64,000 nucleotides of DNA, taken from Stomorhina lunata (lineage: Eukaryota; Arthropoda; Insecta; Diptera; Rhiniidae). Position 1 is the first letter of the stretch; each line of letters starts with the position of its first letter. Both the position numbers and the translations under genes were made by a program. The stretch covers positions 1,149,346 to 1,213,345 of the forward strand of contig OW121745.1 of NCBI GenBank assembly GCA_933228675.1, written 5' to 3'. Below are positions 9,849-64,000 of this stretch, piece by piece. A model generated the notes under the pieces. That model did not search any database. It had not been told where the DNA came from and saw only the letters and a list, made by a program, of their open reading frames with translations.

Positions 9849-9899
<51 letters not shown>

Positions 9900-19730: not shown

Positions 19731-19731
19731 A

Positions 19732-24786: not shown

Positions 24787-24847
24787 AACATGATTTATCT
24801 TATATATTTTCAACCACTAATTATACTTTCATTCACTATTTACAGAT

Positions 24848-25711: not shown

Positions 25712-25737
25712 ACTTCACCTAACTATGGGGGCCGGGA

Positions 25738-26187
25738 TGTTTAATGCTGTATGAAATATGACCAAGCACCCTGTTTTTTTAGTAACGGTCCTACAAGAAT
25801 GTCATCATTATTTATTATTAATTTTCTCATTTTCTCCTTATTCTTATTTTAAAATCAAGCTGTAATTTGCCTTTACATATTACTTTCAAGTCACTCTATT
25901 TTGAACTTTCAAGTCATAAAGCATAAATGTGACCCAACAAAAAAAGTGAACAAACATTGAAAAACATAAAAGTGAAAAAGAACAAAAATTGAATTATTAA
26001 AAAGAAAAAACATAAAATTAAACAAATAAGAAAAAACATACAATTAAACAAATAATAAAAACATAAAATTTGTAAACTTGAATATTTAAATAAAAAACAA
26101 AATCAAATACAAAAAAAACAATAAAAGAATTTTTATTAAAAAAGGAACCAAAAATAAAATACAGTCCACAGACTCTAACAATAAACA
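25738..26187 (+). repeat. BEL/Pao 3' LTR
   Basis: 450 bp, by eye identical to the 5' LTR, preceded by a purine-rich tract (25726-25737 region) and followed by CAAAG (26188-26192). Confidence 0.95.
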
Positions 26188-35500: not shown

Positions 35501-38500
35501 ATTTTTAAAGGGAATTTTTCAAAAATTTCATATTTTTTATAGGAAATTTTTCAAAAATTTCCTATTTTTATAGGAAATTTTTCAAAAATTTCCTATTTTT
35601 ATAGGAAATTTTTCAAAAATTTCCTATTTTTATAGGAAATTTTTCAAAAATTTCCTATTTTTATAGGAAATTTTTCAAAAATTTCCTATTTTTATAGGAA
35701 ATTTTTCAAAAATTTCCTATTTTTATAGGAAATTTTTCAAAAATTTCCTATTTTTATAGGAATTTTTCAAAAATTTCCTATTTTTATAGGAAATTTTTCA
35801 AAAATTTCCTATTTTTATAGGAAATTTTTCAAAAATTTCCTATTTTTATAGGAAATTTTTCAAAAATTTCCTATTTTTATAGGAAATTTTTCAAAAATTT
35901 CCTATTTTTATAGGAAATTTTTCAAAAATTTCCTATTTTTATAGGAAATTTTTCAAAAATTTCCTATTTTTATAGGAAATTTTTCAAAAATTTCCTATTT
36001 TTATAGGAAATTTTTCAAAAATTTCCTATTTTTATAGGAAATTTTTCAAAAATTTCCTATTTTTATAGGAAATTTTTCAAAAATTTCCTATTTTTATAGG
36101 AAATTTTTCAAAAATTTCCTATTTTTATAGGAAATTTTTCAAAAATTTCCTATTTTTATAGGAAATTTTTCAAAAATTTCCTATTTTTATAGGAAATTTT
36201 TCAAAAATTTCCTATTTTTATAGGAAATTTTTCAAAAATTTCCTATTTTTATAGGAAATTTTTCAAAAATTTCCTATTTTTATAGGAAATTTTTTCAAAA
36301 ATTTCCTATTTTTATAGGAAATTTTTCAAAAATTTCCTATTTTTATAGGAAATTTATCAAAAATTTCCTATTTTTATAGGAAATTTTTCAAAAATTTCCT
36401 ATTTTTATAGGAAATTTTTCAAAAATTTCCTATTTTTATAGGAAATTTTTCAAAAATTTCCTATTTTTATAGGAAATTTTTCAAAAATTTCCTATTTTTA
36501 TAGGAAATTTTTCAAAAATTTCCTATTTTTATAGGAAATTTTTCAAAAATTTCCTATTTTTATAGGAAATTTTTCAAAAATTTCCTATTTTTATAGGAAA
36601 TTTTTCAAAAATTTCCTATTTTTATAGGAAATTTTTCAAAAATTTCCTATTTTTATAGGAAATTTTTCAAAAATTTCCTATTTTTATAGGAAATTTTCAA
36701 AATTTATTATTTTTTTATAGGAAATTTTTCAAAAATTTCCTATTTTTATAGGAAATTTTTCAAAAATTTCCTATTTTTCAAAAATTTCCTATTTTTATAG
36801 GAAATTTTACAAAAATTTCCTATTTTTATAGGAAATTTTTCAAAAATTTCCTATTTTTTATAGGAAATTTTTCAAAAAATTTCCTATTTTTATAGGAAAT
36901 TTTTCAAAAATTTCCTATTTTTATAGGAAATTTTTCAAAAATTTCCTATTTTTATAGGAAATTTTTCAAAAATTTCCTATTTTTATAGGAAATTTTTCAA
37001 AAATTTCCTATTTTTATAGGAAATTTTTCAAAAATTTCCTATTTTTATAGGAAATTTTTCAAAAATTTCCTATTTTTATAGGAAATTTTTCAAAAATTTC
37101 CTATTTTTATAGGAAATTTTTCAAAAATTTCCTATTTTTATAGGAAATTTTTCAAAAATTTCCTATTTTTATAGGAAATTTTTCAAAAATTTCCTATTTT
37201 TATAGGAAATTTTTCAAAAATTTCCTATTTTTATAGGAAATTTTTCAAAAATTTCCTATTTTTATAGGAAATTTTTCAAAAATTTCCTATTTTTATAGGA
37301 AATTTTTCAAAAATTTCCTATTTTTATAGGAAATTTTTCAAAAATTTCCTATTTTTATAGGAAATTTTTCAAAAATTTCCTATTTTTATAGGAAATTTTT
37401 CAAAAATTTCCTATTTTTATAGGAAATTTTTCCTAAAATTTCCTATTTTTATAGGAAATTTTTCAAAAATTTCCTATTTTTATAGGAAATTTTTCAAAAA
37501 TTTCCTATTTTTATAGGAAATTTTTCAAAATTTCCTATTTTTATAGGAAATTATTCAAAAATTTCCTATTTTTATAGGAAATTTTTCAAAAATTTCCTAT
37601 TTTTATAGGAAATTTTTCAAAAATTTCCTATTTTTATAGGAAATTTTTCAAAAATTTCCTATTTTTATAGGAAATTTTTCAAAAATTTCCTATTTTTATA
37701 GGAAATTTTTCAAAAATTTCCTATTTTTATAGGAAATTTTTCAAAAATTTCCTATTTTTATAGGAAATTTTTCAAAAATTTCCTATTTTTATAGGAAATT
37801 TTTCAAAAATTTCCTATTTTTATAGGAAATTTTTCAAAAATTTCCTATTTTTATAGGAAATTTTTCAAAAAATTCCTATTTTTATAGGAAATTTTTCAAA
37901 AATTTCCTATTTTTATAGGAAATTTTTCAAAAATTTCCTATTTTTATAGGAAATTTTTCAAAAATTTCCTATTTTTATAGGAAATTTTTCAAAAATTTCC
38001 TATTTTTATAGGAAATTTTTCAAAAATTTCCTATTTTTATAGGAAATTTTTCAAAAATTTCCTATTTTTATAGGAAATTTTTCAAAAATTTCCTATTTTT
38101 ATAGGAAATTTTTCAAAAATTTCCTATTTTTATAGGAAATTTTTCAAAAATTTCCTATTTTTATAGGAAATTTTTCAAAAATTCCTATTTTTATAGGAAA
38201 TTTTTCAAAAATTTCCTATTTTTATAGGAAATTTTTCAAAAATTTCCTATTTTTATAGGAAATTTTTCAAAAATTTCCTATTTTTATAGGAAATTTTTCA
38301 AAAATTTCCTATTTTTATAGGAAATTTTTCAAAAATTTCCTATTTTTATAGGAAATTTTTCAAAAATTTCCTATTTTTATAGGAAATTTTTCAAAAATTT
38401 CCTATTTTTATAGGAAATTTTTCAAAAATTTCCTATTTTTATAGGAAATTTTTCAAAAATTTCCTATTTTTATAGGAAATTTTTCAAAAATTTCCTATTT

Positions 38501-41500
38501 TTATAGGAAATTTTTCAAAAATTTCCTATTTTTATAGGAAATTTTTCAAAAATTTCCTATTTTTATAGGAAATTTTTCAAAAATTTCCTATTTTTATAGG
38601 AAATTTTTCAAAAATTTCCTATTTTTATAGGAAATTTTTCAAAAATTTCCTATTTTTATAGGAAATTTTTCAAAAATTTCCTATTTTTATAGGAAATTTT
38701 TCAAAAATTTCCTATTTTTATAGGAAATTTTTCAAAAATTTCCTATTTTTATAGGAAATTTTTCAAAAATTTCCTATTTTTATAGGAAATTTTTCAAAAA
38801 TTTCCTATTTTTATAGGAAATTTTTCAAAAATTCCTATTTTTATAGGAAATTTTTCAAAAATTTCCTATTTTTATAGGAAATTTTTCAAAAATTTCCTAT
38901 TTTTATAGGAAATTTTTCAAAATTTTCCTATTTTTATAGGAAATTTTTCAAAATTTTCCTATTTTTATAGGAAATTTTTCAAAATTTCCTATTTTTATAG
39001 GAAATTTTTCAAAAATTTCCTATTTTTATAGGAAATTTTTCAAAAATTTCCTATTTTTATAGGAAATTTTTCAAAAATTTCCTATTTTTATAGGAAATTT
39101 TTTCAAAAATTTCCTATTTTTATAGGAAATTTTTCAAAAATTTCCTATTTTTATAGGAAATTTTTCAAAAATTTCCTATTTTTATAGGAAATTTTTCAAA
39201 AATTTCCTATTTTTATAGGAAATTTTTCAAAAATTTCCTATTTTTATAGGAAATTTTTCAAAAATTTCCTATTTTTATAGGAAATTTTTCAAAAATTTCC
39301 TATTTTTATAGGAAATTTTTCAAAAATTTCCTATTTTTATAGGAATTTTTCAAAATTTCCTATTTTTATAGGAAATTTTTCAAAAATTTCCTATTTTTAT
39401 AGGAAATTTTTCAAAAATTTCCTATTTTTATAGGAAATTTTTCAAAAATTTCCTATTTTTATAGGAAATTTTTCAAAAATTTCCTATTTTTATAGGAAAT
39501 TTTTCAAAAATTTCCTATTTTTATAGGAAATTTTTCAAAAATTTCCTATTTTTATAGGAAATTTTTCAAAAATTTCCTATTTTTATAGGAAATTTTTCAA
39601 AAATTTCCTATTTTTATAGGAAATTTTTCAAAAATTTCCTATTTTTATAGGAAATTTTTTCAAAAATTTCCTATTTTTATAGGAAATTTTTCAAAAATTT
39701 CCTATTTTTATAGGAAATTTTTTCAAAAATTTCCTATTTTTATAGGAAATTTTTCAAAAATTTCCTATTTTTATAGGAAATTTTTCAAAATTTCCTATTT
39801 TTATAGGAAATTTTTCAAAAATTTCCTATTTTTATAGGAAATTTTTCAAAAATTTCCTATTTTTATAGGAAATTTTTCAAAAATTTCCTATTTTTATAGG
39901 AAATTTTTCAAAAATTTCCTATTTTTATAGGAAATTTTTCAAAAATTTCCTATTTTTATAGGAAATTTTTCAAAAATTTCCTATTTTTATAGGAAATTTT
40001 TCAAAAATTTCCTATTTTTATAGGAAATTTTTCAAAAATTTCCTATTTTTATAGGAAATTTTTCAAAATTTCCTATTTTTATAGGAAATTTTTCAAAAAT
40101 TTCCTATTTTTATAGGAAATTTTTCAAAAATTTCCTATTTTTATAGGAAATTTTTCAAAAATTTCCTATTTTTATAGGAAATTTTTCAAAAATTTCCTAT
40201 TTTTATAGGAAATTTTTTCAAAAAATTTCCTATTTTTATAGGAAATTTTTCAAAATTTCCTATTTTTATAGGAAATTTTTCAAAAATTTCCTATTTTTAT
40301 AGGAAATTTTTCCAAAAATTTCTATTTTTATAGGAAATTTTTCAAAAATTTCCTATTTTTATAGGAAATTTTCAAAAATTTCCTATTTTTATAGGAAATT
40401 TTTCAAAAATTTCCTATTTTTATAGGAAATTTTTCAAAAAATTTCCTATTTTTATAGGAAATTTTTCAAAAATTTCCTATTTTTATAGGAAATTTTTCAA
40501 AAATTTCCTATTTTTATAGGAAATTTTTCAAAAATTTCCTATTTTTATAGGAAATTTTTCAAAAATTTCCTATTTTTATAGGAAATTTTTCAAAAATTTC
40601 CTATTTTTATAGGAAATTTTTCAAAAATTTCCTATTTTTATAGGAAATTTTTCAAAAATTTCCTATTTTTATAGGAAATTTTTCAAAAATTTCCTATTTT
40701 TATAGGAAATTTTTCAAAAATTTCCTATTTTTATAGGAAATTTTTCAAAAATTTCCTATTTTTATAGGAAATTTTTCAAAAATTTCCTATTTTTATAGGA
40801 AATTTTTCAAAAATTTCCTATTTTTATAGGAAATTTTTCAAAAATTTCCTATTTTTATAGGAAATTTTTCAAAAATTTCCTATTTTTATAGGAAATTTTT
40901 CAAAAATTTCCTATTTTTATAGGAAATTTTTCAAAAATTTCCTATTTTTATAGGAAATTTTTCAAAAATTTCCTATTTTTATAGGAAATTTTTCAAAAAT
41001 TTCCTATTTTTATAGGAAATTTTTCAAAAATTTCCTATTTTTATAGGAAATTTTTCAAAAATTTCCTATTTTTATAGGAAATTTTTCAAAAATTTCCTAT
41101 TTTTATAGGAAATTTTTCAAAAATTTCCTATTTTTATAGGAAATTTTTCAAAAATTTCCTATTTTTATAGGAAATTTTTCAAAAATTTCCTATTTTTATA
41201 GGAAATTTTTCAAAAATTTCCTATTTTTATAGGAAATTTTTCAAAAATTTCCTATTTTTATAGGAAATTTTTCAAAAATTTCCTATTTTTATAGGAAATT
41301 TTTCAAAAATTTCCTATTTTTATAGGAAATTTTTCAAAAATTTCCTATTTTTATAGGAAATTTTTCAAAAATTTCCTATTTTTATAGGAAATTTTTCAAA
41401 AATTTCCTATTTTTATAGAAATTTTTCAAAAATTTCCTATTTTTATAGGAAATTTTTCAAAAATTTCCTATTTTTATAGGAAATTTTTCAAAAATTTCCT

Positions 41501-42010
41501 ATTTTTATAGGAAATTTTTCAAAAATTTCCTATTTTTATAGGAAATTTTTCAAAAATTTCCTATTTTTATAGGAAATTTTTCAAAAATTTCCTATTTTTA
41601 TAGGAAATTTTTCAAAAATTTCCTATTTTTATAGGAAATTTTTCAAAAATTTCCTATTTTTATAGGAAATTTTTCAAAAATTTCCTATTTTTATAGGAAT
41701 TTTTCAAAAATTTCTATTTTATAGGAAATTTTCAAAAATTTCCTATTTTTATAGGAAATTTTTCAAAAATTTCCTATTTTTATAGGAAATTTTTCAAAAA
41801 TTTCCTATTTTTATAGGAAATTTTTCAAAAATTTCCTATTTTTATAGGAAATTTTTCAAAAATTTCCTATTTTTATAGGAAATTTTTCAAAAATTTCCTA
41901 TTTTTATAGGAAATTTTTCAAAAATTTCCTATTTTTATAGGAAATTTTTCAAAAATTTCCTATTTTTATAGGAAATTTTTCAAAAATTTCCTATTTTTAT
42001 AGGAAATTTT
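32545..42010. repeat. 31-bp palindromic satellite array (over 9.4 kb)
   Basis: Unit of 31 bp: arms AGGAAATTTTT and AAAAATTTCCT around a single C, then ATTTTTAT. The 8-base linker is itself framed by CCTAT/ATAGG, so almost every base lies in an inverted repeat. About 300 units are visible. The first 3 kb contain variant units (GGGAAA, AAAGGG, truncated units); from about 35530 on the array is very homogeneous. The open frames in it are artefacts. Confidence 0.98.
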
Positions 42011-47917: not shown

Positions 47918-50019
47918 GTGCAGTTGACACCTTTGCACTCTAAGCTAGCGATATGTAGAGTTATTTGGTTATTTTATTTTAATAACAAATTATAACAAAA
48001 TAGATAAAAAAAAAGTTATATCAATTCATAATGAAAAACAAGTAAGAAAGCGCTATAATCGGTCAAGCCCGACCATACGATACCCTACACCACTAAGGTT
48101 ATTTTTCCTGTATAAAGGCAAATATTTGCTACATTCTGCCATCATAAAAACATTTTCTCAAAACTTATATATTTAACCTGTTTCCGTCATTTGGACTTAT
48201 ATGAGAGCTAGGGTCAAATGTGGACCGATTATCTCGAAATTTGGCAAATTGATTACTCATATATTAAAAATGACATATATAGATGATTGAACTGACCGAT
48301 TTTTCTGAAATTTTGACAGTATGGTAAGATGTGACCGGTGGTTAAAATAGGAAAGGTTTTTTCTGAAATCTCAAGTGGGCGGTGCCTCTCCCATATAACT
48401 CTTATATTAAAAATGACAAATATAGATGACCGATTTTTCTAAGATTTTAACAGTGTTTATATTAAGGTTTTAAAATAGGCCAAATTTTTTTAAATCTTAA
48501 GTGAGCGTAACACCCCCGCATATAAGTCAAATATTAAAAATGACAAACAGGAAGACCCTGAGGACGGTTTTTTCTTAAATTTTGACAGTATTTTAAGGTG
48601 TGACTGGCGAATAAAATAATCCAGGCTTTTTTTAAACCATCAAGTTGTGTTAAATTTAGAAACATATCTCATATATCTACGAGGGTGCAGCAAATTCAAA
48701 ACGTGGACCAAATTGGAAAAAAGTTGTTACTCTAGTTGGTATTGTTGGTAAAATACTTGGAATAACTTCGCTTTCAGTAGCTTTATAGTTCAACATTCAA
48801 AAGTGTGTAAGTGGTTTCCCTAGTATTTATTAACTTTGAAAAAAAATCGTTATCGTAACTGGGTATGGTTTTACATTAATAATACGACAGGTCCATATAT
48901 TTTGTTAGGAGTTCCTAATGCATCTACCATATACATAATCTTAATATGCTGCTTGTACCTCCGAATATTTTTGATTGAAGATATAAAAAAGGGGACGTAA
49001 TATATATAAAAGAATTATAGCCAAATGTTGATCTATTGTAACAAACACTGGCTGGTATTTATATAAAGCTTATTTTTGCAAAATTTAGTGGCAATAGCTG
49101 TCATAGTTTCTTATTAAATAGCTTTTAACTGGTCCTTGCTAAATATTTTTTGGTTTCCGGGAGTGTTTTTTATATGAAAACTATAGTCAAATATGGACAG
49201 ATTCCTATAAAATTTGATATACTGACCAATAGTTGCATAAAACTTCTCTATTATAAATTTAGTCGTCATAGCTATTACAATTGTACTCAATTTATCAGCA
49301 CTCATGTGTTTCCCTTGGAGGGGTTATATGGGAGCTCTAACTAAATATGAACCGATTTTTCCCATTTTCAGTACGCAACTTTTGTTACATATCAAAAATA
49401 CTTTTGTAAAATTTTGTCTCTCTAGCTTTTGTAGTTAAGGAGCTGTCGCGCTTTTATATGACGGACAGATGGACATAAATCTCCTTTTCTTTTTGTATTT
49501 TTGTGTTTCTGTAAGTTTTTTATATGGGAGCTATGGTCAAATGGTGACCGATTGTAACAAAATTTTGCACATTGGCTGGCATTCACATAAAACTTCCTTT
49601 TGTAAAATTTGTTTTATGTAGCTGTTATCATTTATTGGCATTTAAGTGAATTTCAGGTGGAATTTAAACTGTTTCCGTAGTTTTTTTATATGGGAGCTAT
49701 GGTTAAATGTGTACCGATTTCGATGAAATTTTATATGCTGCCTAGTGCTTCTTCTAGATGCCAAATTTTGTCATTGTTATAATTTATCATTTATTAGCAA
49801 ATAAGCGATTAGCCTAGACGAGGTTTTACGGGAGCTATGGTCAAATGTTAACCGATTTTGCCCAATTTCAAAACAAAAAATTTTTCATAGATGAAGAATG
49901 TTTTTACTAAGTTTCAGTGAGCAAGCTCCTTTCGTTTAGGCGTTATCGTGATTTTTATAGACAGACGGACATACGTACGTCGCTCAAACGTCTTAGATTT
50001 CACAAGGATTCAGAATATA

Positions 50020-50357
50020 TGTAGGGTTGGGCGTAGCCTGTGTTGCCAAGTAGTCTTATTGTTATCAAATCAGTAGTCCAGTTGTCATCCAATAAGCAGT
50101 TCAGTTGTCATTCAATCAGCAGTCCAGTTTCCAGTTGTAAAGATGAGAAGTTTCCAGTTGTCATCTGAGTCGTTTTGAGAAATAATGAAGAGAAGTCAGT
50201 CAGCCGTTGTTCGTTAAAGTTGTCAAGCCGGTCGAAAGCTGTCATTTATTTCTATCATTAATTTTCACTAAATATTACTTTATATTAATTATTATATTTA
50301 AATCATTTTGAATTAAACACAATTGAATAAAAACTATTAAACAATTATAATATTACA
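50020..50357 (+). repeat. 5' LTR of the intact gypsy element
   Basis: 338 bp, TG...CA, same as 54560-54897. It contains 'gtccagtt' and 'cagttgtcat' sub-repeats. Confidence 0.95.
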
Positions 50358-50359
50358 TT

Positions 50360-50377
50360 TGGGGGCTCAACCGCACC
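50360..50377 (+). promoter_or_regulatory. Probable primer-binding site
   Basis: TGGGGGCTCAACCGCACC, two bases after the LTR. The first nine bases match the tRNA-Pro site used by many retroviruses and elements, the rest does not, so the tRNA is uncertain. Confidence 0.5.
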
Positions 50378-50496
50378 TTTTAAAAAAAGAATTTAAAAAA
50401 CTAAAAACGAAAATTAAATCTGAATCGAACTACAAAACTACATTAATTTAAAAAAATAAGAAAGAATGCAATAAAAAAAGTTAACGGAACCCTTTT

Positions 50497-53400
50497 TTGC
50501 TAATGGGAAGTGAAACCAGAAAAGAACTAAATCAAATTAAAAACGGTGGAAAAAAGTATTTTACTCGTTCAGTTGCACGCGAATTTAAAACATCCGTAAA
50601 TTGTAAACATTTATCGTCTAATTTGGATTTGAGTGAATATATACCTAAAAATTGTGCAAACCTTAATATTTCAACTAATAAATGCTTAGAAATGCCGGAT
50701 GAAAAAAAGCCTAAAGTTGAATCGAGTGATTTAAGTGAAGTTTTAAAATTATTGGCCATGAAACTGAATAAAGACGATGGTAAAGACAATCAGGCATATG
50801 TTTCTATAGATGCTTTTAATAGAATTATACCGGAGTGTGATGGTACCTCTATACCCATTAAGCAGTGGTTTGAAAACTTTGATAAAAATGCCGAAGCATA
50901 CGAGCTAAATTTAAAGCAAAAATACGTACAGGCAAGAAATAAAATGACAAAAACAGCTCAATTGTTTCTGGAATCTGTAACAGTGAGTGATTATGAAAGT
51001 TTGCGAAAAACATTGATTGGTGAGTTTCATGTGGAGTATAGCAGTGCCGATTTGCATAAAAAGTTGAGTGAAAGAAAAAAGAAAGATTCAGAGAATATCC
51101 ATGAATATGTGCTCCAAATGAAAAAACTTGCCGCTCTCGGTTCTATTGAAGACATTTCGGTAATCCGTTATATAGTTGATGGACTTCCAATAAAAAATGA
51201 GCTTAAATACTCTCTTTATTCAGCAAAAAACTTTAAAGATCTAAGAGATCAATATGAAATTATAGAAAGAATAATTCAAAAAGAAAATTTTACTCGTACA
51301 TTTAAGCGAAATGAAAACAAAGATAATCGAAAGAAAAAAGAACATTGTTATAATTGCGGGTCAGTAGAACATAAGAGAGCAGAATGTAAAGCTCCAACTA
51401 AATGTTTTAAGTGCAACAACAATGGCCATATGGCAAGAGACTGTAATGTAAAAGACAAAAACATAAACAAACCCGCGAATGTGAATTTAGTAGTGGATAA
51501 GAAAAGATTGAAAAATATTTTTCTAAACAAAATTAAAGTTGAAGGTTTAGTAGATACCGGTTCAGATGTAACAATAATGCAAAAAAGTGTATATAATAAA
51601 CATTTTCAAGACGTTGAATTATTGAAAAGTGAAAAACTGTTATACGGGCTTGGTAATTCTGAAACAAAAGTTCTTGGTAGTATTAAGTGTGAAATAGCAG
51701 TTGATGAAGTTGAATTAGAACATGAAGTTTTAGTACTCGAAGACTATAATTTAAAGTATGCAGTTTTGCTCGGTTATGACTTTATTGAAAAGTGTCATTT
51801 TGCTTTCGGCTCCGATGGTTACACGTTTTATCAAGCAGAAAACTCTACAACTGGTGAGGAAGTGTCGTCTCAGCTAAAAGTTTACAACGTGGTAGACATC
51901 GAACAACAAATAGAAGTGCCGCAAGAACATAAAGAATCGATTAGAAAATTCGTAACAGAATACAATCCAAATAAAAGACATTTTGAATGTCCAGTAACGT
52001 TAACAATTATTCCGGACAATGCCGTTCCGTTTCGCCACTCGCCAAGTCGGTTACCACTACAGCAGCAAGAAATCGTTAGACATCAAGTTGAAGATTGGCT
52101 AGCAGAAGAAATAGTTAGACCTTCCACATCGGATTATGCAAGCAGAGTTGTTGTTACAAAAAAGAAAGATGGTTCGAGCAGAGTTTGTATTGATTTTCGT
52201 AAACTCAACTCAATGGTTTTAAAAGATTGTTTCCCAGTACCTCTAATAGACGATGTTCTAGAAAAACTCCAAGGTTCAAAATATTTCTGTGTTATGGACT
52301 TAGAAAACGGATTTTTTCACGTCCCTATAGAAGAAAGCAGCAAAAAATATACTGCGTTTGTTACTAAAGACGGAATGTATGAATTTAATCGCGCCCCATT
52401 TGGATTTTGTAATTCACCGGCCGTATTCATCAGGTATGTCAATTTTATTTTCCAATCTTTAATTAATGAGAATACAATGGAGTTGTATATGGATGATATA
52501 ATTGTGTTTGGAAGTACGTCAGAAGACTGTTTAGCTAAACTACAAAAAGTATTAAACACTGCCGCTCATTTTGGTCTTAAAATAAAATGGTCTAAATGCA
52601 AATTCATGCAAACAAAAATTAACTTTCTGGGACATACTGTGGAAAATGGTTACGTTTGGCCGGGTAGCGAAAAAACTAAAGCTGTCGAAAAATTTCCGAA
52701 GCCAACTAACATCAGAAGTATCCAGTCCTTTTTAGGTCTAACAGGCTATTTTAGAAAATTTATAAAAAATTACTCTATTATTGCACGCCCTTTAACAAAT
52801 CTTTTGAAGTCGAATGCCGTGTTTAGGGTGGAAGCAGAGGAAATAAAGGCAATAAATACTTTAAAGATGGAGTTAACCCGTGAGCCAGTCCTAAGAATTT
52901 ATAACAGAAGTGCACATACAGAAGTCCACACAGATGCATCTAAAGATGGTTTTGGAGCAGCTTTATTACAAATTCATGAAAATAAATTACATCCTGTTTT
53001 CTTTTGGAGCAAAAAGACATCACCCCAAGAAGCTGGCAAACACAGCTATATACTAGAGGTAAAGGCCGCTTACCTAGCGTTAAAGAAGTTTAGGCATTAT
53101 CTGTTGGGCATCGAGTTTAAACTTGTGACAGACTGCGCAGCATTCAAACAAACAACATCCAAAAAAGATCTCCCTCGTGATGTGGCACAATGGATTTTAT
53201 ATCTTCAGGATTTTAGCTATACAGTGGAACATCGTCCAGGTAACAGGATGAAGCACGTTGATTGTTTAAGCCGCCATCCCATTGCAGAAATAATGGTAAT
53301 TTCATCAGAACTTAGTACCCGTTTGGCAAAAGCTCAACAAAAAGATGAACATTTGCAAGCTATCACAAAAATTCTAAGCGAAGGTGCCTACAAAGACTAC

Positions 53401-54564
53401 AAGCTGAAAGGAGAGTTAATTTACAGAACTCTAAAAGGCAACGATTTACTTGTAGTCCCAAAGTTGATGGAGACTGAGATTATTCGCAACGCACACGATG
53501 CTGGACATTTTGCTGCACATAAGACTATACACGCTATTCAACAACATTACTTTATACCTCACTTAGAGCACAAGGTCAATCAATTTATCAATAATTGTAT
53601 TAAGTGTATCATCTGTAATAAAAGGTTGGGAAAGAAGGAAGGGTTTTTACACTGCATCGAGAAAGGCGACTCACCACTACACACCCTACACGTTGATCAT
53701 CTGGGCCCTATGGACAGTACGTCAAAACAATATAAATATATTTTCGCAGCAGTCGATGGGTTCACCAAATTTGTCTGGTTATTTCCTACAAAGTCAACAG
53801 GAACAGAGGAGGTTTTAAGGCGTCTAACTGAATGGTCTACTACATTTGGCAATCCATATAGAATAATCAGTGACAAAGGCTCTGCCTTTACTTCGGCAGC
53901 CTTCAGTGAATATTGTAACTGCAACAACATAGAACACGTTAAAATAACAACGGGTATTGCAAGAGGAAATGGGCAAGTAGAACGAGTTAATCGATCGATT
54001 TTATCTATATTATCAATATTGTCCAGTGATGATCCAACTAAATGGTACAAGTTTGTAAGCCGAGTCCAAACGGCTATAAACTCTCATATCCATTGCTCAA
54101 CCAAGTTTACCCCATTCGAAATTATGTTCGGGACAAAGATGAGAACTAGTGTCAACACTGATATTCTGCAGACATTAAAAGAAGAGCTTCTTCAAAACTA
54201 CAATGATAATAGAGATTCTTTGCGAAACGAAGCCAGATTGCAGTTAACAAAAGCTCAAGAAACATACAAAACAAATTACGACAAGAAGAGAAAAGCTGAA
54301 ACAGTTTACAAACTGGGCGATTTAGTCGCCATTAAAAGAACCCAGTTTGCAGCGGGTAAAAAATTAGCAGCGGAATACCTCGGTCCCTATAAAATTACCA
54401 AAGTAAAGAGAAACGGTCGCTATGAAGTGCAAAAAGCAGCAGATACAGAAGGTCCTAATAAAACGTCAACGTCTTGTGACAACATGAAATTATGGCGGTA
54501 TGCCGAGACCAATGATGACCTCTTATCATCTGGGTCAGATGAAGATCAGGATGACCGAATGTAG
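50497..54564 (+). CDS. Gypsy gag-pol polyprotein, single intact ORF
   Basis: 1355 residues with no break. Capsid-like Gag lies roughly at 100-265; two CCHC knuckles at 284-297 and 303-316; retropepsin DTG at 353-355; reverse transcriptase with YMDD 664-667; RNase H with D812, E853 and D879; integrase HHCC (H1004, H1008, C1037, C1040) and D1067, D1126, E1162 (D,D35E); a YLGPYKI-type C-terminal module. All catalytic residues expected for a working element are present. Gag and Pol share one frame without a frameshift, so their ratio must be set otherwise. The stop codon TAG (54562-54564) falls inside the 3' LTR, whose first base is 54560. ATG-Leu-Met at the start leaves two possible Met starts (50497, 50503). 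Lineage within gypsy not assigned. Confidence 0.95.
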   Translation: MLMGSETRKELNQIKNGGKKYFTRSVAREFKTSVNCKHLSSNLDLSEYIPKNCANLNISTNKCLEMPDEKKPKVESSDLSEVLKLLAMKLNKDDGKDNQAYVSIDAFNRIIPECDGTSIPIKQWFENFDKNAEAYELNLKQKYVQARNKMTKTAQLFLESVTVSDYESLRKTLIGEFHVEYSSADLHKKLSERKKKDSENIHEYVLQMKKLAALGSIEDISVIRYIVDGLPIKNELKYSLYSAKNFKDLRDQYEIIERIIQKENFTRTFKRNENKDNRKKKEHCYNCGSVEHKRAECKAPTKCFKCNNNGHMARDCNVKDKNINKPANVNLVVDKKRLKNIFLNKIKVEGLVDTGSDVTIMQKSVYNKHFQDVELLKSEKLLYGLGNSETKVLGSIKCEIAVDEVELEHEVLVLEDYNLKYAVLLGYDFIEKCHFAFGSDGYTFYQAENSTTGEEVSSQLKVYNVVDIEQQIEVPQEHKESIRKFVTEYNPNKRHFECPVTLTIIPDNAVPFRHSPSRLPLQQQEIVRHQVEDWLAEEIVRPSTSDYASRVVVTKKKDGSSRVCIDFRKLNSMVLKDCFPVPLIDDVLEKLQGSKYFCVMDLENGFFHVPIEESSKKYTAFVTKDGMYEFNRAPFGFCNSPAVFIRYVNFIFQSLINENTMELYMDDIIVFGSTSEDCLAKLQKVLNTAAHFGLKIKWSKCKFMQTKINFLGHTVENGYVWPGSEKTKAVEKFPKPTNIRSIQSFLGLTGYFRKFIKNYSIIARPLTNLLKSNAVFRVEAEEIKAINTLKMELTREPVLRIYNRSAHTEVHTDASKDGFGAALLQIHENKLHPVFFWSKKTSPQEAGKHSYILEVKAAYLALKKFRHYLLGIEFKLVTDCAAFKQTTSKKDLPRDVAQWILYLQDFSYTVEHRPGNRMKHVDCLSRHPIAEIMVISSELSTRLAKAQQKDEHLQAITKILSEGAYKDYKLKGELIYRTLKGNDLLVVPKLMETEIIRNAHDAGHFAAHKTIHAIQQHYFIPHLEHKVNQFINNCIKCIICNKRLGKKEGFLHCIEKGDSPLHTLHVDHLGPMDSTSKQYKYIFAAVDGFTKFVWLFPTKSTGTEEVLRRLTEWSTTFGNPYRIISDKGSAFTSAAFSEYCNCNNIEHVKITTGIARGNGQVERVNRSILSILSILSSDDPTKWYKFVSRVQTAINSHIHCSTKFTPFEIMFGTKMRTSVNTDILQTLKEELLQNYNDNRDSLRNEARLQLTKAQETYKTNYDKKRKAETVYKLGDLVAIKRTQFAAGKKLAAEYLGPYKITKVKRNGRYEVQKAADTEGPNKTSTSCDNMKLWRYAETNDDLLSSGSDEDQDDRM

Positions 54565-54897
54565 GGTTGGGCGTAGCCTGTGTTGCCAAGTAGTCTTATT
54601 GTTATCAAATCAGTAGTCCAGTTGTCATCCAATAAGCAGTTCAGTTGTCATTCAATCAGCAGTCCAGTTTCCAGTTGTAAAGATGAGAAGTTTCCAGTTG
54701 TCATCTGAGTCGTTTTGAGAAATAATGAAGAGAAGTCAGTCAGCCGTTGTTCGTTAAAGTTGTCAAGCCGGTCGAAAGCTGTCATTTATTTCTATCATTA
54801 ATTTTCACTAAATATTACTTTATATTAATTATTATATTTAAATCATTTTGAATTAAACACAATTGAATAAAAACTATTAAACAATTATAATATTACA
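54560..54897 (+). repeat. 3' LTR of the intact gypsy element
   Basis: 338 bp, by eye identical to the 5' LTR. It is preceded by a purine-rich stretch that also encodes the acidic C-terminus of Pol. Confidence 0.95.
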
Positions 54898-55107
54898 TAT
54901 ATATCGTTTTTGATTTTTGAGCCAACAGTAAGGAAATTACAAACGGAATGACAATCTCAATATACCCCCTATTCTTTTTGATGGTAGGTATAAAAAGGGG
55001 ATGTTGTATATACATATAAGAACTATAGACAAATGTTGACCGATTGTAACAAAATTTTGGTATTAATATAAAGTTTATTTGTACAAAATTTAGTGGCCAT
55101 AGCTGAC

Positions 55108-56071
55108 ATCTATATATATAAAACTCTAACGTGACTGACTGACTGATTGACTGACTCATCATCGCACAGCCCAAACGGCTAAAGCTAGAGAGCTGAAATT
55201 TTGACAGCGGGTACCTTTTTCAAAGTATAGATCCACTAAGACGGGATTTTTGGAAATTCGGACTCAAAGGGGGTAAAAAAGGGAAAAATTAGTAATGCTG
55301 TATCTCCGGAAGTAAACGTCATAGGCCCAAAATTGAAATTGCGTTGGGATCAGCTACAAAAATAAGTAGACACGTGCTTGGTACTTTTTAGCAGATGGGA
55401 CAAATATTGGGTAAAAAGGGTAAAAATGAAATGTTAGTACTTTTTTAAACCCATGTGTATCTTTTGAACCAATCAACAGAGTAACAAAATTCAAAACGGA
55501 GCCGGTAAACAAGAAAAAAATATTAGAAACGTGTTTGGTACTTTTTTGATTCAGGGTTCAAAAAGGGGGAAAAGCGGGGAAAAAAATTTAGGGTAGGTCC
55601 ATTTTTCTTTTTCTTTGTATTTGACTTGAACCAATAAAGCTACCAATAAAATTTATAGGGAGGTCGATTGTTCAGTACAAAATATTAAATACGTGTTTGG
55701 TACTTTTTTCAATTAAAAGGGTAAAAAAGGGAAAATCGGTAACATTAACATCCTTAACCAACAGCGATAGAAGCGAAAATTAAACTGGCTTGAGATTAGC
55801 ACTAAAAATTAAGGGACACGTGTTCGGTACTTTTTTGAAAATCGGCCGCCTAGCGGGCAAAACAGGGTAGAAAAGGGAGAAATTAGTAACATCATATCTC
55901 CGAAACCAACATAGACAGAAACAAAGTTGAAATTGTATTTGAATCGCCTACAAAAATAAGGGGACACGTGTTTGGTAAAAAGGGTAAAAACTATATTTTG
56001 GTACTTTTTTTAACCCATATGTATCTTTTGAACTAATGAACATAGAAAAACATTTTATATCGCAACCGATA
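55108..56071. repeat. Head of a degenerate tandem-repeat region
   Basis: Opens with (TA)n and a GACT-rich tract (55131-55158), then 'cgcacagcccaaacggctaaagc'. From about 55200 on, roughly 110-bp degenerate lines recur, each with 'gggtaaaaaaggg', 'cacgtgtt.ggtactttttt' and 'tatctccgaaa..aa'. It continues beyond the Transib insertion at 61599. Confidence 0.75.
56067..56071. repeat. Transib target-site duplication, left copy
   Basis: CGATA, repeated at 61599-61603 directly after the element's right end. A 5-bp duplication is characteristic of Transib elements. Confidence 0.9.
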
Positions 56072-57485
56072 CACAGTGGTTTACGGACGCTTTTTTTTGG
56101 AAATAATTCTGTAACTTTTGAACGACTGGAGATATTTGAATGAAATTTGACATGGTCGTAGTCAAGGAGTATTTGAGTTGGTTTTTAAAAGCACTGGTCC
56201 ATGAGGGGTCGGGAGAGTGATTGATGGACCTTCAAAGTTGGTCACCTCGGGTGTTCGATTTTTTTAAAAATTCGCCAAAAATCCATTTATGTATGGATTG
56301 AAAAGAAATTTTAAACTTAAGTTGTCATTGAGAAGATCTACAAAAAATATGCTTAAATGTGTAGGTTATCTCCTTTGGATTTCGAGATATTTGGGTAAAA
56401 AGGAATTTTTAGGTTGATTTTTTACCTCTTTTTTTAAGCTTTTTTTGATCTGGTGGACGCATCTGAGGACCAAAAATTTTTTAAGAATATTCTTTAAATT
56501 TGTAATAAAATTCTGAATAATTTTTGTGCAAGTTAGTTATAGAAATCTTCTTTTGTTTAAAAGTTAAAAATATTCAAAGTTGAAACTTACAAAAAATTTC
56601 GCTTTTTTTTTAGTTTTTCCCCAAAAGATAGCTATATTTTTTCACTAATAAAAAAATATTTTCTTAAGAAACATAAAAAGATTTTTAAAGTTTTTAAAAG
56701 AAAACATAATGAGAATGCGTATAAAACAAATTTCTTGCTAATTGGACTTTTGGTCCTCGCACATGTCCTCTCCAAAAAATGGCAATTTGTAAAAAAAAAA
56801 ATTAGTTTAAACAAAAATTTCTCAAAAGGCAAAGCACCGATTTGAAAAAAATTATAATGTTCATATTTTCTAATATATCTGTTATTGATTAGAAAAGTTT
56901 TTTCTGAAACGCGCTGCAAATAGAGACAGTGTTGCCATATTTGTAAAAAAACTCATTTTTTGAAACACCTTTTTCCCCAGTTGGGAATTGGGGAATTTTT
57001 AAGTTAAAATTGGGAATTTTTTTTAGTCTATTGCTTTTACATCTTATTGGTCTACATTACTACAAAATTTCATTGTAATATCTTTATCCATGTCATTTCC
57101 ACAGAATATCAAAGATTAAAAATATTTTCCTTAAAAAAGCAGAAAAACAATTTTTTTTTGTTTTACGATACAAAGTGTAAAAAAAGTAACGCACTTAAAA
57201 AAAACTTTTACTTAGTGCTAATCTCCTAGTCTTTCCCGATCTAATGATACTAAACATGTATATAAAGCATTAATACCGAGTCTTAAAAAACTCTGAAAAC
57301 TTTGGCCCCCGTAGCATTTTTACACTGTTTATTTAAATATAAGTGATGAATTTGTGCATATAAAATTAATAATCATACTCAAATATTTCACTATAAGATG
57401 ACAATGATCCTTCGATAACAAACAAATATTTTCTTCAAAAAGATATAAATAGTTTTTTATTTTTTTAAAGAAAACATTATAAGAA
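56072..57485 (+). repeat. Transib left inverted-repeat arm
   Basis: Begins CACAGTG GTTTACGGACGC followed by eight T. Inverted copy at 60210-61598. Within it, 56650-56900 resembles, as a diverged direct copy, the sequence at about 57425-57660. The open frames in the arm are mirrored in the other arm and show no known domain. Confidence 0.92.
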
Positions 57486-58040
57486 TGACTTAAAAAAATT
57501 TTATTCGATTTTGCCTTTTGTTCCAAGCTAAAAAATAAAATTTTAGTAAAAGATTCTAAATAAGTAAGTACGAGTAAGGCACCGATTTTGATAACAGTGT
57601 AAAGGTAATATATCCATAATTTGTAGCAAAAGTTTAATTAGAAGAGTACTTTTATAGTAACAGTGTGACAATTTATTTAAAATAAGATTTAAAGGCATTT
57701 TTCCGGTATTTAAAATTGGTGTATTTGAAAAAATTGCAAAATTATGTTAAGGTTATAAAATGTTTTTTAATGTGAAAGTTAATGCAATAGGTAAAAATTG
57801 TTACAACTTGGGTTTTTCATAATGGTCAGAAAGGATATGGTTACTCACCTCCATACAGGTAGGTTTTACGAGACGCACATATTGGTTGAGTTATATATGC
57901 ACCTATTTTTAGAGGTAAAAAATACATTAATTCATTGATTTCTTTATTATTCTTTGGATACAGGTATATATAAAAAATGTTTTTTTTTTAATATAAAAAA
58001 GAAAGTTTTAAATGTAACTGCTATTAACAGTTAAAACATC
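57486..58040 (+). promoter_or_regulatory. Upstream region of the Transib transposase gene
   Basis: AT-rich stretch between the left arm and the start codon, presumably holding the promoter and 5' UTR. No clear TATA/Inr pair can be singled out in such AT-rich sequence. A 'ttaacag' just before the start could be a splice acceptor. Confidence 0.35.
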
Positions 58041-60077
58041 ATGGCTATAACATTGGAATTTAAAGTGTTGTGCGATATTCTTTTTGAACAACCAAGCAGT
58101 TCGAGAGCAGAAAAAATTAAAATAATCATGCGATATGCTAAAAGTCAAACTAACTCCATGATTCTCAATAGTGAGGAAGACAAAGTCGTAAAATTTGTAA
58201 AGTTATTTGAACTTAAAATTAAGTCGGTTAATTACTGTTTAAAAAGATTTGAATCTAAATTTAAAGACTGGCTGAAGGACTCAATTGAGCTTAAAACTTC
58301 TGGTGCTGGAGCCCCTCTAAAAAACTATGATGATCTCGGAGAAAGATCTAAAAAGATGCGATTATCCGAAGTTCTTTCTACTCATTCGGATACTGAAATC
58401 AAAGATTCCTTTAAGGAAGTGCTCAAACGAAATAATCAACCAGCTGAAGCTAAACAAATAGCAGATATTCTCCCAGAGGCTTCTCCTAAACGTCTTAAGC
58501 GAATTATTAAGAGTATACCAACTCCTTCTTCTCAATCAGAATTTTCGGAGGAAGAAGCACTTGCTCTTATGCTCGAGTTGAAATTGAGTAAAAATAAATA
58601 TATTAAACTCTGTAAGGCATTACGAGACAAAGGACACTCAATTTTACCAGGATATAATGCGTTATTAAAAACCAAAAAAAACTTAATACCAACAAACGTG
58701 ATAGGAGACGAAAGTGCATCTGTGGATTTATCAAAATTATTGGAAAATACGGCATCAAGGCTGATATCTACTACATTGTCTGAAGAAGAAGCCAAGAAAC
58801 TTGACAACAAGGACTTAACTTTAATATGTAAATGGGGATGTGACGGTTTATCTGGATTACCGGAATACAAACAATCAACATCTCATCAGAACACAAATGA
58901 CTACAGAAGCGTTTTTATGGCATCCCTAGTACCACTAAGATTAAGAAAGAATCGTTCTGAACCATCCACATCAAAAGAGCGTACTGAATATGTGTGGGTT
59001 AACACATCTCCAGGATCAAAGGCATTTTGCAGACCGATCAGATTCGAATATTTAAAAGAAAATGCAGCAAGCACAAAAAATTGGGTTGATGATATCAAAT
59101 ATTCAATAGACAATTTGAGTCCAGTCTGCATAGACATACATGGATATTTGATTAATGTAAATTTTGAGCTTCAATTGACAATGATAGATGGAAAAGTAAG
59201 CAACGCTATAACGGAAACCCATTCAACTTGGAAATGCTCATTATGCGGAAAGAAGAAATCGGAATTTCTACAAACTTCAGAAGATGCATCAGCTAGTACT
59301 GCAATTAATCAAGAGGTTCTGGAATTTGGTATATCGCCCCTACATGCACGTATCCGATTTTTAGAATTTATGCTACATATAGCATATGATCTGAAATATA
59401 GGAATATACCTGATAATCAGCTAAAATCCGTGAGAAATAATAAGGAACTGATTGAAATGAGATCCAGTGAAAAAAAAAGGATTCAGGAAGAATTCAAAAC
59501 TATGACGGGTCTAAACATAGACAAACCACTTGTAGGATATGGCAGTACAAACGATGGTAATACGGCCAGGCGATTCTTTGAAAATTATGAAACAACTTCA
59601 AAGATTACTGGAATTGATGAGGAAGTTCTTCGTAAATGTTACGTAATATTATCGGCAATAAATAGCAAATATCAAATAAATGCTGAAAAATTTCATTGCT
59701 ATGCCCTCAACGCGTTAACTCGTATACGACATTTGTATCACTGGAAAGAAATTACACCAACAGTTCATAAAGTCCTTCAACATGGTCGTGAAATAATTGA
59801 ATCAAATCTTCTCCCACTTGGTGAACTGACAGAAGAGGCCCAGGAAGCGCGGAATTCAGATTTCAAGTATATCCAACTATTTAATACCAGAAAATGCTCA
59901 AGAAAATCGCAAAATCAGGATCTAATAAATTATCTCTTGTTGTCTTCTGATCCTGCTCTATCAACGATAAGAAAGAAATGGTGGAGCAGTTATACAAAAA
60001 CTTCTGAAAACGAACACCTGGAAGAGGTTCTTGATATAATAGATTGTACTGATTATTTTACTGAAAATAAAAATTAA
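58041..60077 (+). CDS. Transib transposase (RAG1-core-like)
   Basis: 678 residues, no intron, no break. It would cut at the CACAGTG-type ends by nicking and hairpin formation, as known for Transib and RAG1, and act in the nucleus. Landmarks: CKWGCDGLSG with the first Asp D268; D383 in MIDGK, matching RAG1 D708; the zinc pair C399/C402 (WKCSLCG, RAG1 C727/C730); GSTNDGNTARRFF (501-513), the conserved stretch before the C-terminal half; H576 and H581 (TVHKVLQHG, RAG1 H937/H942); E602 in EAQEARN, aligned with RAG1 E962. Residues 1-160 have no recognised domain and replace the RING/nonamer-binding part of RAG1. The start is the first ATG in frame. AATAAA-like signals follow at about 60103-60150. 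With all catalytic and zinc residues present, it may be functional. RAG1 residue matches are from memory of the alignment. Confidence 0.93.
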   Translation: MAITLEFKVLCDILFEQPSSSRAEKIKIIMRYAKSQTNSMILNSEEDKVVKFVKLFELKIKSVNYCLKRFESKFKDWLKDSIELKTSGAGAPLKNYDDLGERSKKMRLSEVLSTHSDTEIKDSFKEVLKRNNQPAEAKQIADILPEASPKRLKRIIKSIPTPSSQSEFSEEEALALMLELKLSKNKYIKLCKALRDKGHSILPGYNALLKTKKNLIPTNVIGDESASVDLSKLLENTASRLISTTLSEEEAKKLDNKDLTLICKWGCDGLSGLPEYKQSTSHQNTNDYRSVFMASLVPLRLRKNRSEPSTSKERTEYVWVNTSPGSKAFCRPIRFEYLKENAASTKNWVDDIKYSIDNLSPVCIDIHGYLINVNFELQLTMIDGKVSNAITETHSTWKCSLCGKKKSEFLQTSEDASASTAINQEVLEFGISPLHARIRFLEFMLHIAYDLKYRNIPDNQLKSVRNNKELIEMRSSEKKRIQEEFKTMTGLNIDKPLVGYGSTNDGNTARRFFENYETTSKITGIDEEVLRKCYVILSAINSKYQINAEKFHCYALNALTRIRHLYHWKEITPTVHKVLQHGREIIESNLLPLGELTEEAQEARNSDFKYIQLFNTRKCSRKSQNQDLINYLLLSSDPALSTIRKKWWSSYTKTSENEHLEEVLDIIDCTDYFTENKN

Positions 60078-60209
60078 GTAAATAACTACTTTTATATAAA
60101 TATGTAATAAAAACTGTAAGTTTAAACTTTAACTACAAATACTTCAATAAAATGTATTTCACCTTTTAATATAAGTACAAATTATTTACATTTTGATATT
60201 TCATAAATC
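60078..60209 (+). other. 3' UTR of the Transib gene
   Basis: Short AT-rich stretch with several AATAAA-like hexamers (near 60105 and 60147) between the stop codon and the right arm. Confidence 0.5.
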
Positions 60210-61598
60210 CTCATGATATTTTCTTTAAAAAAATAAAAAAATATTTGTTTGTTATCGAAGGATCATTGTCATCTTATAGTGAAATATTTGAGTATGATTA
60301 TTAATTTTATATGCACAAATTCATCACTTATATTTAAATAAACAGTGTAAAAATGCTACGGGGGCCAAAGTTTTCAGAGTTTTTTAAGACTCGGTATTAA
60401 TGCTTTATATACATGTTTAGTATCATTAGATCGGGAAAGACTAGGAGATTAGCACTAAGTAAAAGTTTTTTTTAAGTGCGTTACTTTTTTTACACTTTGT
60501 ATCGTAAAACAAAAAAAAATTGTTTTTCTGCTTTTTTAAGGAAAATATTTTTAATCTTTGATATTCTGTGGAAATGACATGGATAAAGATATTACAATGA
60601 AATTTTGTAGTAATGTAGACCAATAAGATGTAAAAGCAATAGACTAAAAAAAATTCCCAATTTTAACTTAAAAATTCCCCAATTCCCAACTGGGGAAAAA
60701 GGCGTTTCAAAAAATGAGTTTTTTTACAAATATGGCAACACTATCTCTATTTGCAGCGCGTTTCAGAAAAAACTTTTCTAATCAATAACAGATATATTGG
60801 AAAATATGAACATTATAATTTTTTTCAAATCGGTGCTTTGCCTTTTGAGAAATTTTTGTTTAAACTAATTTTTTTTTTTACAAATTGCCATTTTTTGGAG
60901 AGGACATGTGCGAGGACCAAAAGTCCAATTAGCAAGAAATTTGTTTTATACGCATTCTCATTATGTTTTCTTTTAAAAACTTTAAAAATCTTTTTATGTT
61001 TCTTAAGAAAATATTTTTTTATTAGTGAAAAAATATAGCTATCTTTTGGGGAAAAACTAAAAAAAAAGCGAAATTTTTTGTAAGTTTCAACTTTGAATAT
61101 TTTTAACTTTTAAACAAAAGAAGATTTCTATAACTAACTTGCACAAAAATTATTCAGAATTTTATTACAAATTTAAAGAATATTCTTAAAAAATTTTTGG
61201 TCCTCAGATGCGTCCACCAGATCAAAAAAAGCTTAAAAAAAGAGGTAAAAAATCAACCTAAAAATTCCTTTTTACCCAAATATCTCGAAATCCAAAGGAG
61301 ATAACCTACACATTTAAGCGTATTTTTTGTAGATCTTCTCAAGGACAACTTAAGTTTAAAATTTCTTTTCAATCCATACATAAATGGATTTTTGGCGAAT
61401 TTTTAAAAAAGTCGAACACCCGAGGTGACCAACTTTGAAGGTCCATCAATCACTCTCCCGACCCCTCATGGACCAGTGCTTTTAAAAACCAACTCGAATA
61501 CTCCTTGACTATCACCATGTTAAATTTCATTCAAATATCTCCAGTCGTTCAAAAGTTAAAGAATTATTTCCAAAAAAAAGCGTCCGTAAACCACTGTG
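60210..61598 (-). repeat. Transib right inverted-repeat arm
   Basis: Reverse complement of the left arm. It ends CACTGTG at 61592-61598 and is followed by CGATA. It lacks about 34 bp present near 57435 in the left arm. Confidence 0.92.
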
Positions 61599-64000
61599 CG
61601 ATAGATATTAAAGAAAAACTAAATACGCATTTGGTACTTTTGCAATTAATGGGGCACAAAAGGGTAAAAAAGGGAAAATATTCAAGGATAGGGTTTTTGG
61701 TTTTTAGCCATGGATATCTTTAAGGCTAATGAAGCCAGAAGTATAATTTATTGACTGGTCGATGGACATTGAAAAAAATAAACTACGAGTTTGGTACTTT
61801 TTTTAATTTTGGGGGTAAAAATCTGTAAAGTATATCTTCTAAACCAAAAGGGATAGAAACAAAAACTAAATTGGTCTGAGATCGGCACTTAAAACCAAGG
61901 GACACGTGTTCGGTACTTCTATGAAATTCAACCTCCTAGAAGGTAAAACAGGGTAGAAAAGGGAGAAATCATTAACATCATATCTCCGAAACCAATACAG
62001 ATAGAAACAAAGTTGAAATTGGATTTAAGTCGGCTAGAAAAATAAGGGGACACGTGTTTAGTACTTTTTTGAAAATGGCACCAATAAGGATAAAAAAGGG
62101 TAAAAACTATATTTTGGTACTTTTTTTAACCCATATGTATCTTTTGAACTAATAAACATAGAAACATAATTTATATCGCAACAGATAGATATTAAAAAAC
62201 AATTAAATACGTATTTGGTACTTTTGCGATTAATGGGATACAAAAGGGTAAAAAAGGGAAAATATTTAAGGGTAGGTTTTTTGTTTTTAGCTATGGATAT
62301 CTTTTAGGCTAATTAAGATAGAAGTATAATTTATTGACTGGTCGATTGAAAAAGAAAAAATAAAATACATTTTTGGTACTTTTTTTAATTTTGGGGGTAA
62401 AAATATATCTTCTAAATCAAAAGTGATAGAAACAAAAACTAAATTAGTCTGAGATCAGCACTAAAAATGAAGGGACACGTGTTCGGTACTTTTTTGAAAT
62501 TCGACCTTTTAAAGGGTAAAACTGGGTAGAAAAGGGAGAAATTAGTAACATCATATCTCCGAAACTAACACCGATGCAAACGAAGTTTAAATTGGATTTG
62601 AATCGGATAAAAAAATAAATGGCCACGTATTTGGTACTATTTCAAAAATGGTACTAATAAGAATAAAAAAGGGTAAAAACTATATTTTGGTACTTTTTTA
62701 ACCCATATATATCTTTTGAACTAATAAACATAGAAACATAATTTATATCGCAACTGATAGGCATTAAAAAACTATTAAACACGTATTTGGTACTTTTGCG
62801 ATTAATGTGGGACGAAAGGGTAAAAAAAAGGGAAAATATTCAAGAGTAGGTTTTTTGCTTTTTAGCTAAGAATATCTTTTCGGCTAATGAAGCCAGAAGC
62901 ATAATTTATTGGCTGGTAAATTGGCACTGAAAAAAGTAAAATAAGTGTCTGGTACTTTTTTTAATTTTGGGGGTAAAAATCAGTGAAAAATATATCTTCT
63001 TAGCCAAAAGTGATAGAAACAACAACTAAATCGGTCTAAAATCGGCACTTTAAATTAAGGGACATGTATTCGGTACTTTTTTCTTTAATTCGGCCGTTTT
63101 GGGGTTAAAACAGGGAAAAAATGGGAAATATTAGTAACGTCATATCTCCGAAATTCAAAACGATAGGAATAGAGTTGAAATTTGCTTCGGATGGACTGAA
63201 AAAAAACGAGAAATGTATTTGGTACTTTTTTGAATATGGTACTAATAAGGGTAAAAAAGGGCAAAAACTATATTTTGGTACTTTTTTTGAACCCATACGT
63301 ATCTTTTGAAATAACAAACATAGAGAAACAGTAAACGTCACAATTGATAAGTAACAAAGAATTATTAGACACGTATTTGGTACTTTTACGATAATTGAGG
63401 TAAAAAAGATAAAAACTGGGAAATATTCAAGGGTAGGTTTTTAACTAATGAAGCCAGAACTATAATTTACAGACGGGTGGATTCATATTGAAAAAGTAAA
63501 TTGAAAAAAATTGAAAAAGAAAATGGATAAATTAGTAACATCATATCTCCGAAATTTACATCGTTAGAAACAAAGTTGAAATTGGATTTGGATCATCTTG
63601 CAAAAAAAGGGGACACGAGTTTGGTACTTTTTTGGAAATGAAACTAATAAGGGAGAAAAGGGGAAAAAACTATATTTTGGTACTTTATTAACCCTATAAG
63701 TATCTCTTGAACTAATAAACATAAATACTCTATTTACATCACAATTGATAAGGACTAACAAAAATTAAGAAGGTGCTTCGCGCTTTTACGATAAATGAGG
63801 CACAAAAGAGTAAAAACTATGAATATCATTTTAACAAATAAAGCCAGAAGTATAATTTACAGACAGGTCTATTCACATTGCAGAAGTATAAGACACGCGA
63901 TTGATTCCTTTTTTTAATTTTTGGAGTAAAAAGGGGGAAAATCGGTAACGTAATGTCTCATAAATCAAAAGTGATAGAAACAAAGATTAAATTGGTCTAT
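61599..64000. repeat. Higher-order tandem repeat (about 570-590 bp period)
   Basis: The line 'gggacacgtgttcggtac' recurs near 61902, 62470 and 63057. Each period holds about five degenerate 110-120-bp sub-repeats, with 'gggtaaaaaaggg', 'ggtacttttt' and 'atatctccgaaa' or 'atcttttgaactaataaacata'. At least four periods run off the window edge. The repeat also lies left of the Transib insertion. No open frame is believable. Confidence 0.85.

Follow-up and report, generated by a model that had tools for sequence, protein, structure and literature searches.

A recently amplified Transib transposon with long inverted ends in the genome of the fly Stomorhina lunata

Transib transposons are single-gene relatives of the RAG recombinase, the enzyme that rearranges antibody genes. 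Their target-site duplications (TSDs) have the consensus CGNCG, and CACAGTG is the heptamer consensus of vertebrate recombination signal sequences (RSSs). HzTransib from Helicoverpa zea (PDB 6pqn/6pqx) has been reported as a 3,518-bp element with 'long TIRs' (PMC1852546), and the Transib TSD is tabled elsewhere as CNNNG (PMC7764229). Autonomous Transibs are described as typically single or low in copy number, for reasons not known (PMC4411706). For H. armigera, the tally given is 188 copies, 32 of them full-length, for all Transib families together (PMC7764229), and for the Drosophila melanogaster Transib hopper 533 insertion sites are reported, the target motif being given as CCANTGG (PMC3276498).

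The element described here lies in a 64,000-bp window of the Stomorhina lunata genome (C12:1149346-1213345), the whole stretch of DNA that was analysed. Its transposase is homologous to that of HzTransib over residues 162-657, and both elements have 5-bp TSDs. In contrast to HzTransib, the element is 5.5 kb long with 1.36-kb arms, and its protein extends about 160 residues further at the N terminus than the solved chain. Because HzTransib has already been credited with long TIRs (PMC1852546), such ends are not new in kind. Hopper shares a 5-bp TSD, a GC-rich target motif and many new insertions, whereas the family target here is C-G/A-N-C-G over 34 TSDs rather than CCANTGG (PMC3276498). RAG1/RAG2 and the RAGL transposons (PMC7204232, PMC8355894) share a RAG1-type fold, CAC-initiated ends and a 5-bp TSD, but in the window element no RAG2 gene was seen among uninterrupted ORFs of at least 80 aa, and the 12/23 nonamer layout is absent. 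Galileo, a Drosophila element of the P superfamily, is comparable in having long TIRs that exchange sequence between copies, with chimeras that lack TSDs. It differs by its superfamily and its 7-bp TSD, and the exchange seen here occurs between arms within a near-uniform family (PMC3573991).

Structure and abundance of the element

The Transib copy spans positions 56072-61598 of the window (5,527 bp), exactly as a preliminary description had placed it, beginning with CACAGTGG and terminating with CCACTGTG. CACAGTG is present at both extremities, and CGATA flanks the element on the left and right; when flank lengths of 3-9 were compared, a match was obtained at five bases only. The following features were assigned.

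55271..56071, + strand: host satellite (repeat unit about 575 bp), flanking the element on its left side (repeat alignment)
56067..56071, no strand: left TSD CGATA (flank match and empty-site repeats)
56072..57435, + strand: left TIR arm, 1,364 bp, starting CACAGTG (12 mismatches to the right arm, no gaps)
56072..56123, + strand: outermost 52 bp, likely the end recognized by the transposase (identical in L050, otherwise about 90.5% identical)
58041..60077, + strand: transposase open reading frame (ORF), 678 aa, RAG1-type DDE with ZnC2/ZnH2 residues (ORF scan, homology, alignment, model)
60106..60111, + strand: AATAAA, a candidate polyadenylation signal assigned by motif alone (further AATAAA at 60146 and 60232)
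60235..61598, - strand: right TIR arm, ending CACTGTG (inverted match to the left arm)
61599..61603, no strand: right TSD CGATA (flank match and empty-site repeats)
61604..63998, + strand: host satellite (repeat of about 575 bp), right of the element, holding unoccupied targets, e.g. 62157-62222 and 62729-62794 (repeat alignment)

The same description had proposed intact ends, the CGATA duplication and an intact 678-residue transposase. All three hold: the ends and the duplication are borne out by the flank comparison and by empty satellite repeats (see below), and the transposase is encoded by an unbroken ORF at 58041-60077. It overlooked two features, namely the 1,364-bp inverted arms and the genome-wide copy number. 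The arms align without gaps at 99.1% identity, and their outer 39 bp are the same at both ends. Eight of the 12 mismatches fall within the outer 280 bp, a clustering equalled in a fraction of 0.00055 of 20,000 random placements, with the 280-bp limit picked post hoc from data already seen. No second ORF was found: 58041-60077 is the sole ATG-started frame of at least 80 aa within 55500-62100, in a scan that covered uninterrupted ORFs.

Several other mobile or repetitive sequences occupy the window. A Gypsy-like element occupies 1-11001 and is bounded by direct repeats of 2.4 kb (1-2409 and 8572-11001; 94% identical). Its - strand carries ORFs for gag, RT, RNase H and integrase, and an extra 166-aa frame (7277-7777) overlaps gag and matches a RING finger (PF13639, E 1.5e-7). 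A BEL/Pao element at 18559-26187 contains a 1,687-aa frame, its 450-bp LTRs are 100% identical, and it is probably a very recent insertion. The Gypsy element at 50019-54898 likewise has 100% identical LTRs (340 bp) and an open 1,359-aa frame. At 12400-18144, inverted repeats of about 90% identity (parts of 12400-14095 versus 17117-18144) surround a 465-aa frame on the - strand (15204-16601) with no Pfam match, perhaps representing a second DNA transposon. Finally, 32541-42010 is a 31-bp satellite of about 307 copies (97%).

We searched the host genome (728,027,400 bp, 104 contigs) for further representatives. With a 329-bp end query there were 983 first-look candidates, and all 40 that were scored were 99-100% identical, 39 of them on contig C1. 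The terminal 38 bp, allowing up to 3 mismatches, gave 819 forward and 805 reverse matches (1,624 in total), and the reversed control gave 0. End pairing covered the first 100 of these places, all of them exact and situated within the initial 60.6 Mb of C1. Among these, 78 ends form 39 neighbouring pairs and 22 are unpaired, some owing to a mismatched partner (e.g. L027). The pairs comprise 29 of 5,360-5,540 bp, six of 3,867-3,975 bp, two of about 2.1 kb and two that are longer. Extrapolating from this part of C1 to all 1,624 ends would give roughly 470 to 600 full-length copies. At C1:32263932-32274985 (G000), two full-size copies follow each other with a 5-bp gap, an arrangement suggestive of insertion of one copy into the duplication of the other.

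A protein search yielded 2,026 candidates, of which 65 were scored; all 65 are stop-free and 100% identical over 678 aa. These places lie on C1, C2, C4, C7 and C10 and do not include the window copy on C12, such that the total of identical, unmutated transposase genes is at least 66 when that copy is counted.

Age, activity and mode of multiplication

We put at about 0.9 the probability that the window element is a complete autonomous Transib with near-identical long ends, very recently mobile and probably still so. Two samples of copies bear on this reading. The first comprises the 31 places, all on C1 and all fetched, that correspond to the 39 end-query matches outside the window, plus the window copy (32 in total); these places were chosen through one end haplotype. 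Both ends lie within the stretch in 28 of the 32 (L029, L033, L034 and L035 have one end only), and 13 of these 28 two-ended copies retain an intact 678-aa ORF. Six of the 13 proteins are identical, including that of the window. For the second sample, 10 places were picked from the 65 ORF matches, and both ends were found in nine (L043 is one short by the pattern used). Six of the nine carry the window ORF letter for letter, and the other three differ by 1-2 silent bases.

When 33 normal-length copies were aligned, pairs differed by a mean of 0.25%; 125 variants are confined to one copy and 19 are shared. The former correspond to 0.069% per copy, a figure to which assembly errors may contribute. 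Among the 13 intact ORFs, 12 nonsynonymous and 5 synonymous changes were observed, compared with an expected ratio of 3.7:1 without selection. This ratio is not far from neutral, which indicates that little time or selection has acted since insertion, as in a recent burst or in drift after insertion. Judged from sequence, the family was mobile very recently and is likely to be active at present, and the 'apparently active' label given earlier is strengthened by the at least 65 other places that encode the same protein in copies only about 0.25% apart.

An alternative that overlaps with this reading, and departs from it solely over present activity, is that the burst has ended and that a young family with intact sequence has been immobilized by host silencing. 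The frequency of singletons would permit an earlier end of activity, and the full frame is already missing in 15 of the 28 two-ended copies. However, the 65 or more other identical, unmutated ORFs and the star-like variation among copies argue against it, and we consider silencing possible but rather unlikely.

Far less probable is the proposal that many of the copies arose by segmental or satellite duplication or by assembly error, as might be suspected from a window copy that sits inside a satellite array and from two C1 copies separated by only 5 bp. Against this proposal, a perfect 5-bp duplication flanks 25 of the 28 two-ended copies in the first sample and 9 of 9 in the second, giving 34 of 37 on C1, C2, C4, C7, C10 and C12, and the 28 copies of the first sample have 28 distinct flank pairs. 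The exceptions L009, L021 and L039 have two ends and no matching TSD; recombination among copies or a local deletion may have produced them. The pooled TSDs have the consensus CGNCG: among the 34, position 1 is C in 28, position 2 is G (19) or A (10), position 3 is any base, position 4 is C in 25 and position 5 is G in 25.

The satellite also preserves the target site in its unoccupied form. When the flanks of the window copy are joined, they align unbroken through other repeats of the window, with the best alignments at 61773-62575 (82%) and 62355-63153 (78%). The junction reads CAACAGATAGATATT and CAACTGATAGGCATT in these two unoccupied repeats, and the joined flanks read CAACCGATA followed directly by GATATT. 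Of five insert-free repeats aligned across the site, four carry NGATA once, and the fifth (at 55477), which is more diverged, carries CGGTA. The window TSD is therefore real, and the target originally held a single copy of the five bases.

Transposase homology and family membership

The element represents a new, recently amplified family of the known Transib superfamily. In phmmer searches against the PDB, the window protein matched HzTransib (6pqn, E 9.8e-90, residues 162-657) and, far more weakly, amphioxus RAG1L (6b40, E 1.4e-4). Its nearest named relatives are from Stomoxys and Lucilia. D268, D383 and E602, together with the zinc residues C399, C402, H576 and H581, are found where the preliminary description had located them in the 678-aa protein, and all seven are invariant in 22 aligned rows (the window protein plus 21 of 93 homologues). 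The N-terminal segment of about 160 residues that is missing from the solved HzTransib chain is common to the aligned homologues. In a tree of 92 rows, from which the fusion-like matches P0075, P0091 and P0093 were excluded, P0001 and the window protein form a pair (62% identity, support 99). This pair is nested in a 29-row set that includes a Stomoxys calcitrans protein, and HzTransib is on a different branch.

An AlphaFold model built on the 22-row alignment (mean pLDDT 81.8, pTM 0.67) recovered HzTransib 6pqx with TMt 0.91 in a fold search. Mouse RAG1 chains (from E 8.5e-21, TMt 0.54-0.69) and BbRAGL were also matched. Transib identity, as originally proposed, is therefore supported by sequence, tree, fold, TSD and ends, and the description of the enzyme as a RAG1-like recombinase agrees with the fold match to mouse RAG1. 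The RAG1 half of the profile check suggested at the same time did not succeed: Pfam RAG1 (PF12940) is not among the matches of the window protein at E<=1, where three weak matches to other families lie below the cut-off. When four relatives were scanned, P0069 passed PF12940 (3.5e-7) and the other three had no match. An NCBIfam scan of the window transposase returned no family, and none of 35 pattern matches among viral contigs was confirmed as a relative.

These results combine with the structure of the element. It encodes a RAG1-like DDE transposase with ZnC2/ZnH2 residues that is nearest to known Transib proteins, its TIRs begin with a CAC heptamer (CACAGTG, present on either side in the window copy and in the 27 other two-ended copies of the first sample), and its 5-bp TSDs are GC-rich, with the window CGATA fitting the family consensus loosely. 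The element carries a single gene, and RAG2 is absent among uninterrupted ORFs of at least 80 aa. We also scanned both ends for ACAAAAACC, the RSS nonamer consensus; at a 12-bp spacing 0 of 9 positions match and at a 23-bp spacing 4 of 9, the same at each end. A RAG-like transposon (RAG1L/RAG2L, ProtoRAG-type) would account for the fold matches to mouse RAG1 and BbRAGL and for a heptamer identical to the vertebrate RSS consensus, but is hardly credible given the missing nonamer at either spacing, the lack of a further ORF of at least 80 aa and the much nearer sequence relationship to HzTransib than to RAG1L.

Arm haplotypes and exchange between ends

Two haplotypes, H1 and H2, are distinguished in the outer 280 bp (called from position 40). 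Relative to the ORF, the first sample contains 10 H1/H2, nine H1/H1 and eight H2/H1 arrangements among the 27 two-ended copies that have an interior (L039, which has no ORF, was set aside), and the nine ORF-chosen copies comprise three of each. H2/H2 was found in neither sample; the first excludes it by selection, and the nine copies of the second are too few for its absence to carry weight. Among 23 copies, inner-arm markers mostly keep their side of the ORF and the outer haplotypes switch sides. A crossover between inverted arms that flips the interior, or conversion, would yield this pattern. In addition, the 5' inner arm of the window copy is of the 3' type and the 3' arm of L038 is of the 5' type, with partial cases in L011, L014 and L023, and these swaps point to conversion as well.

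The window copy, with one haplotype per end, made a left/right rule for the ends look possible, but this was dropped because H1/H1 copies carry perfect TSDs: eight of 10 in the first sample (exceptions L009 and L039) and all three in the second. Two differing end haplotypes therefore seem unnecessary, unless homogenization came after insertion. We think it somewhat better than an even bet that this Transib is in mid-burst and currently mobile, that its 1.36-kb ends are interchangeable, that recombination between the arms flips and homogenizes the interior, and that transposition is therefore supported whichever haplotype stands at which end, including one haplotype at both.

The non-autonomous relative L050 (3,948 bp, TSD TGCCG), one of the six end pairs of about 3.9 kb, has a foldback-like structure whose arms are perfect inverted repeats of each other across 1,579 bp. 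These arms are about 90.5% identical to the TIR of the autonomous family over 1,299 bp, and the middle is unrelated to the autonomous element and has no ORF of more than 76 aa. In L039, one arm belongs to the same diverged class, with 91.5% identity across 1,299 bp, and the other arm is 98.4% identical over 557 bp. The outer 52 bp of L050 are identical to those of the autonomous element, which suggests that the transposase recognizes this segment. The divergence of the L050 arms indicates a lineage older in the host genome than the present burst; a very recent first arrival of the family was also considered, and is disfavoured by the presence of this relative in the same genome.

By analogy with HzTransib and RAG, the product of the single ORF is predicted to act as a RAG1-like DDE transposase that pairs two CACAGTG ends, presumably recognized within their outer 52 bp. 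It would nick the ends and form hairpins on the flanking DNA, a cut-and-paste catalysis modelled on HzTransib structures, and the element would then be joined into CGNCG-like sites to leave 5-bp duplications. Recombination between the arms may flip the interior.

What is unusual in this family is the number of identical intact genes together with the apparently interchangeable ends. Among the open-access reports surveyed, none was found to describe a Transib whose intact copies number in the hundreds, although this does not establish absence in print. If the reading of the ends is true, a fixed left/right (12/23-like) asymmetry would be dispensable in this Transib lineage, and one natural genome would offer a direct test of end pairing in the RAG family. 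With its 1,624 ends and at least 66 identical transposase genes, the genome provides a natural system for the limits on Transib spread, the role of end asymmetry and recombination between long inverted ends.
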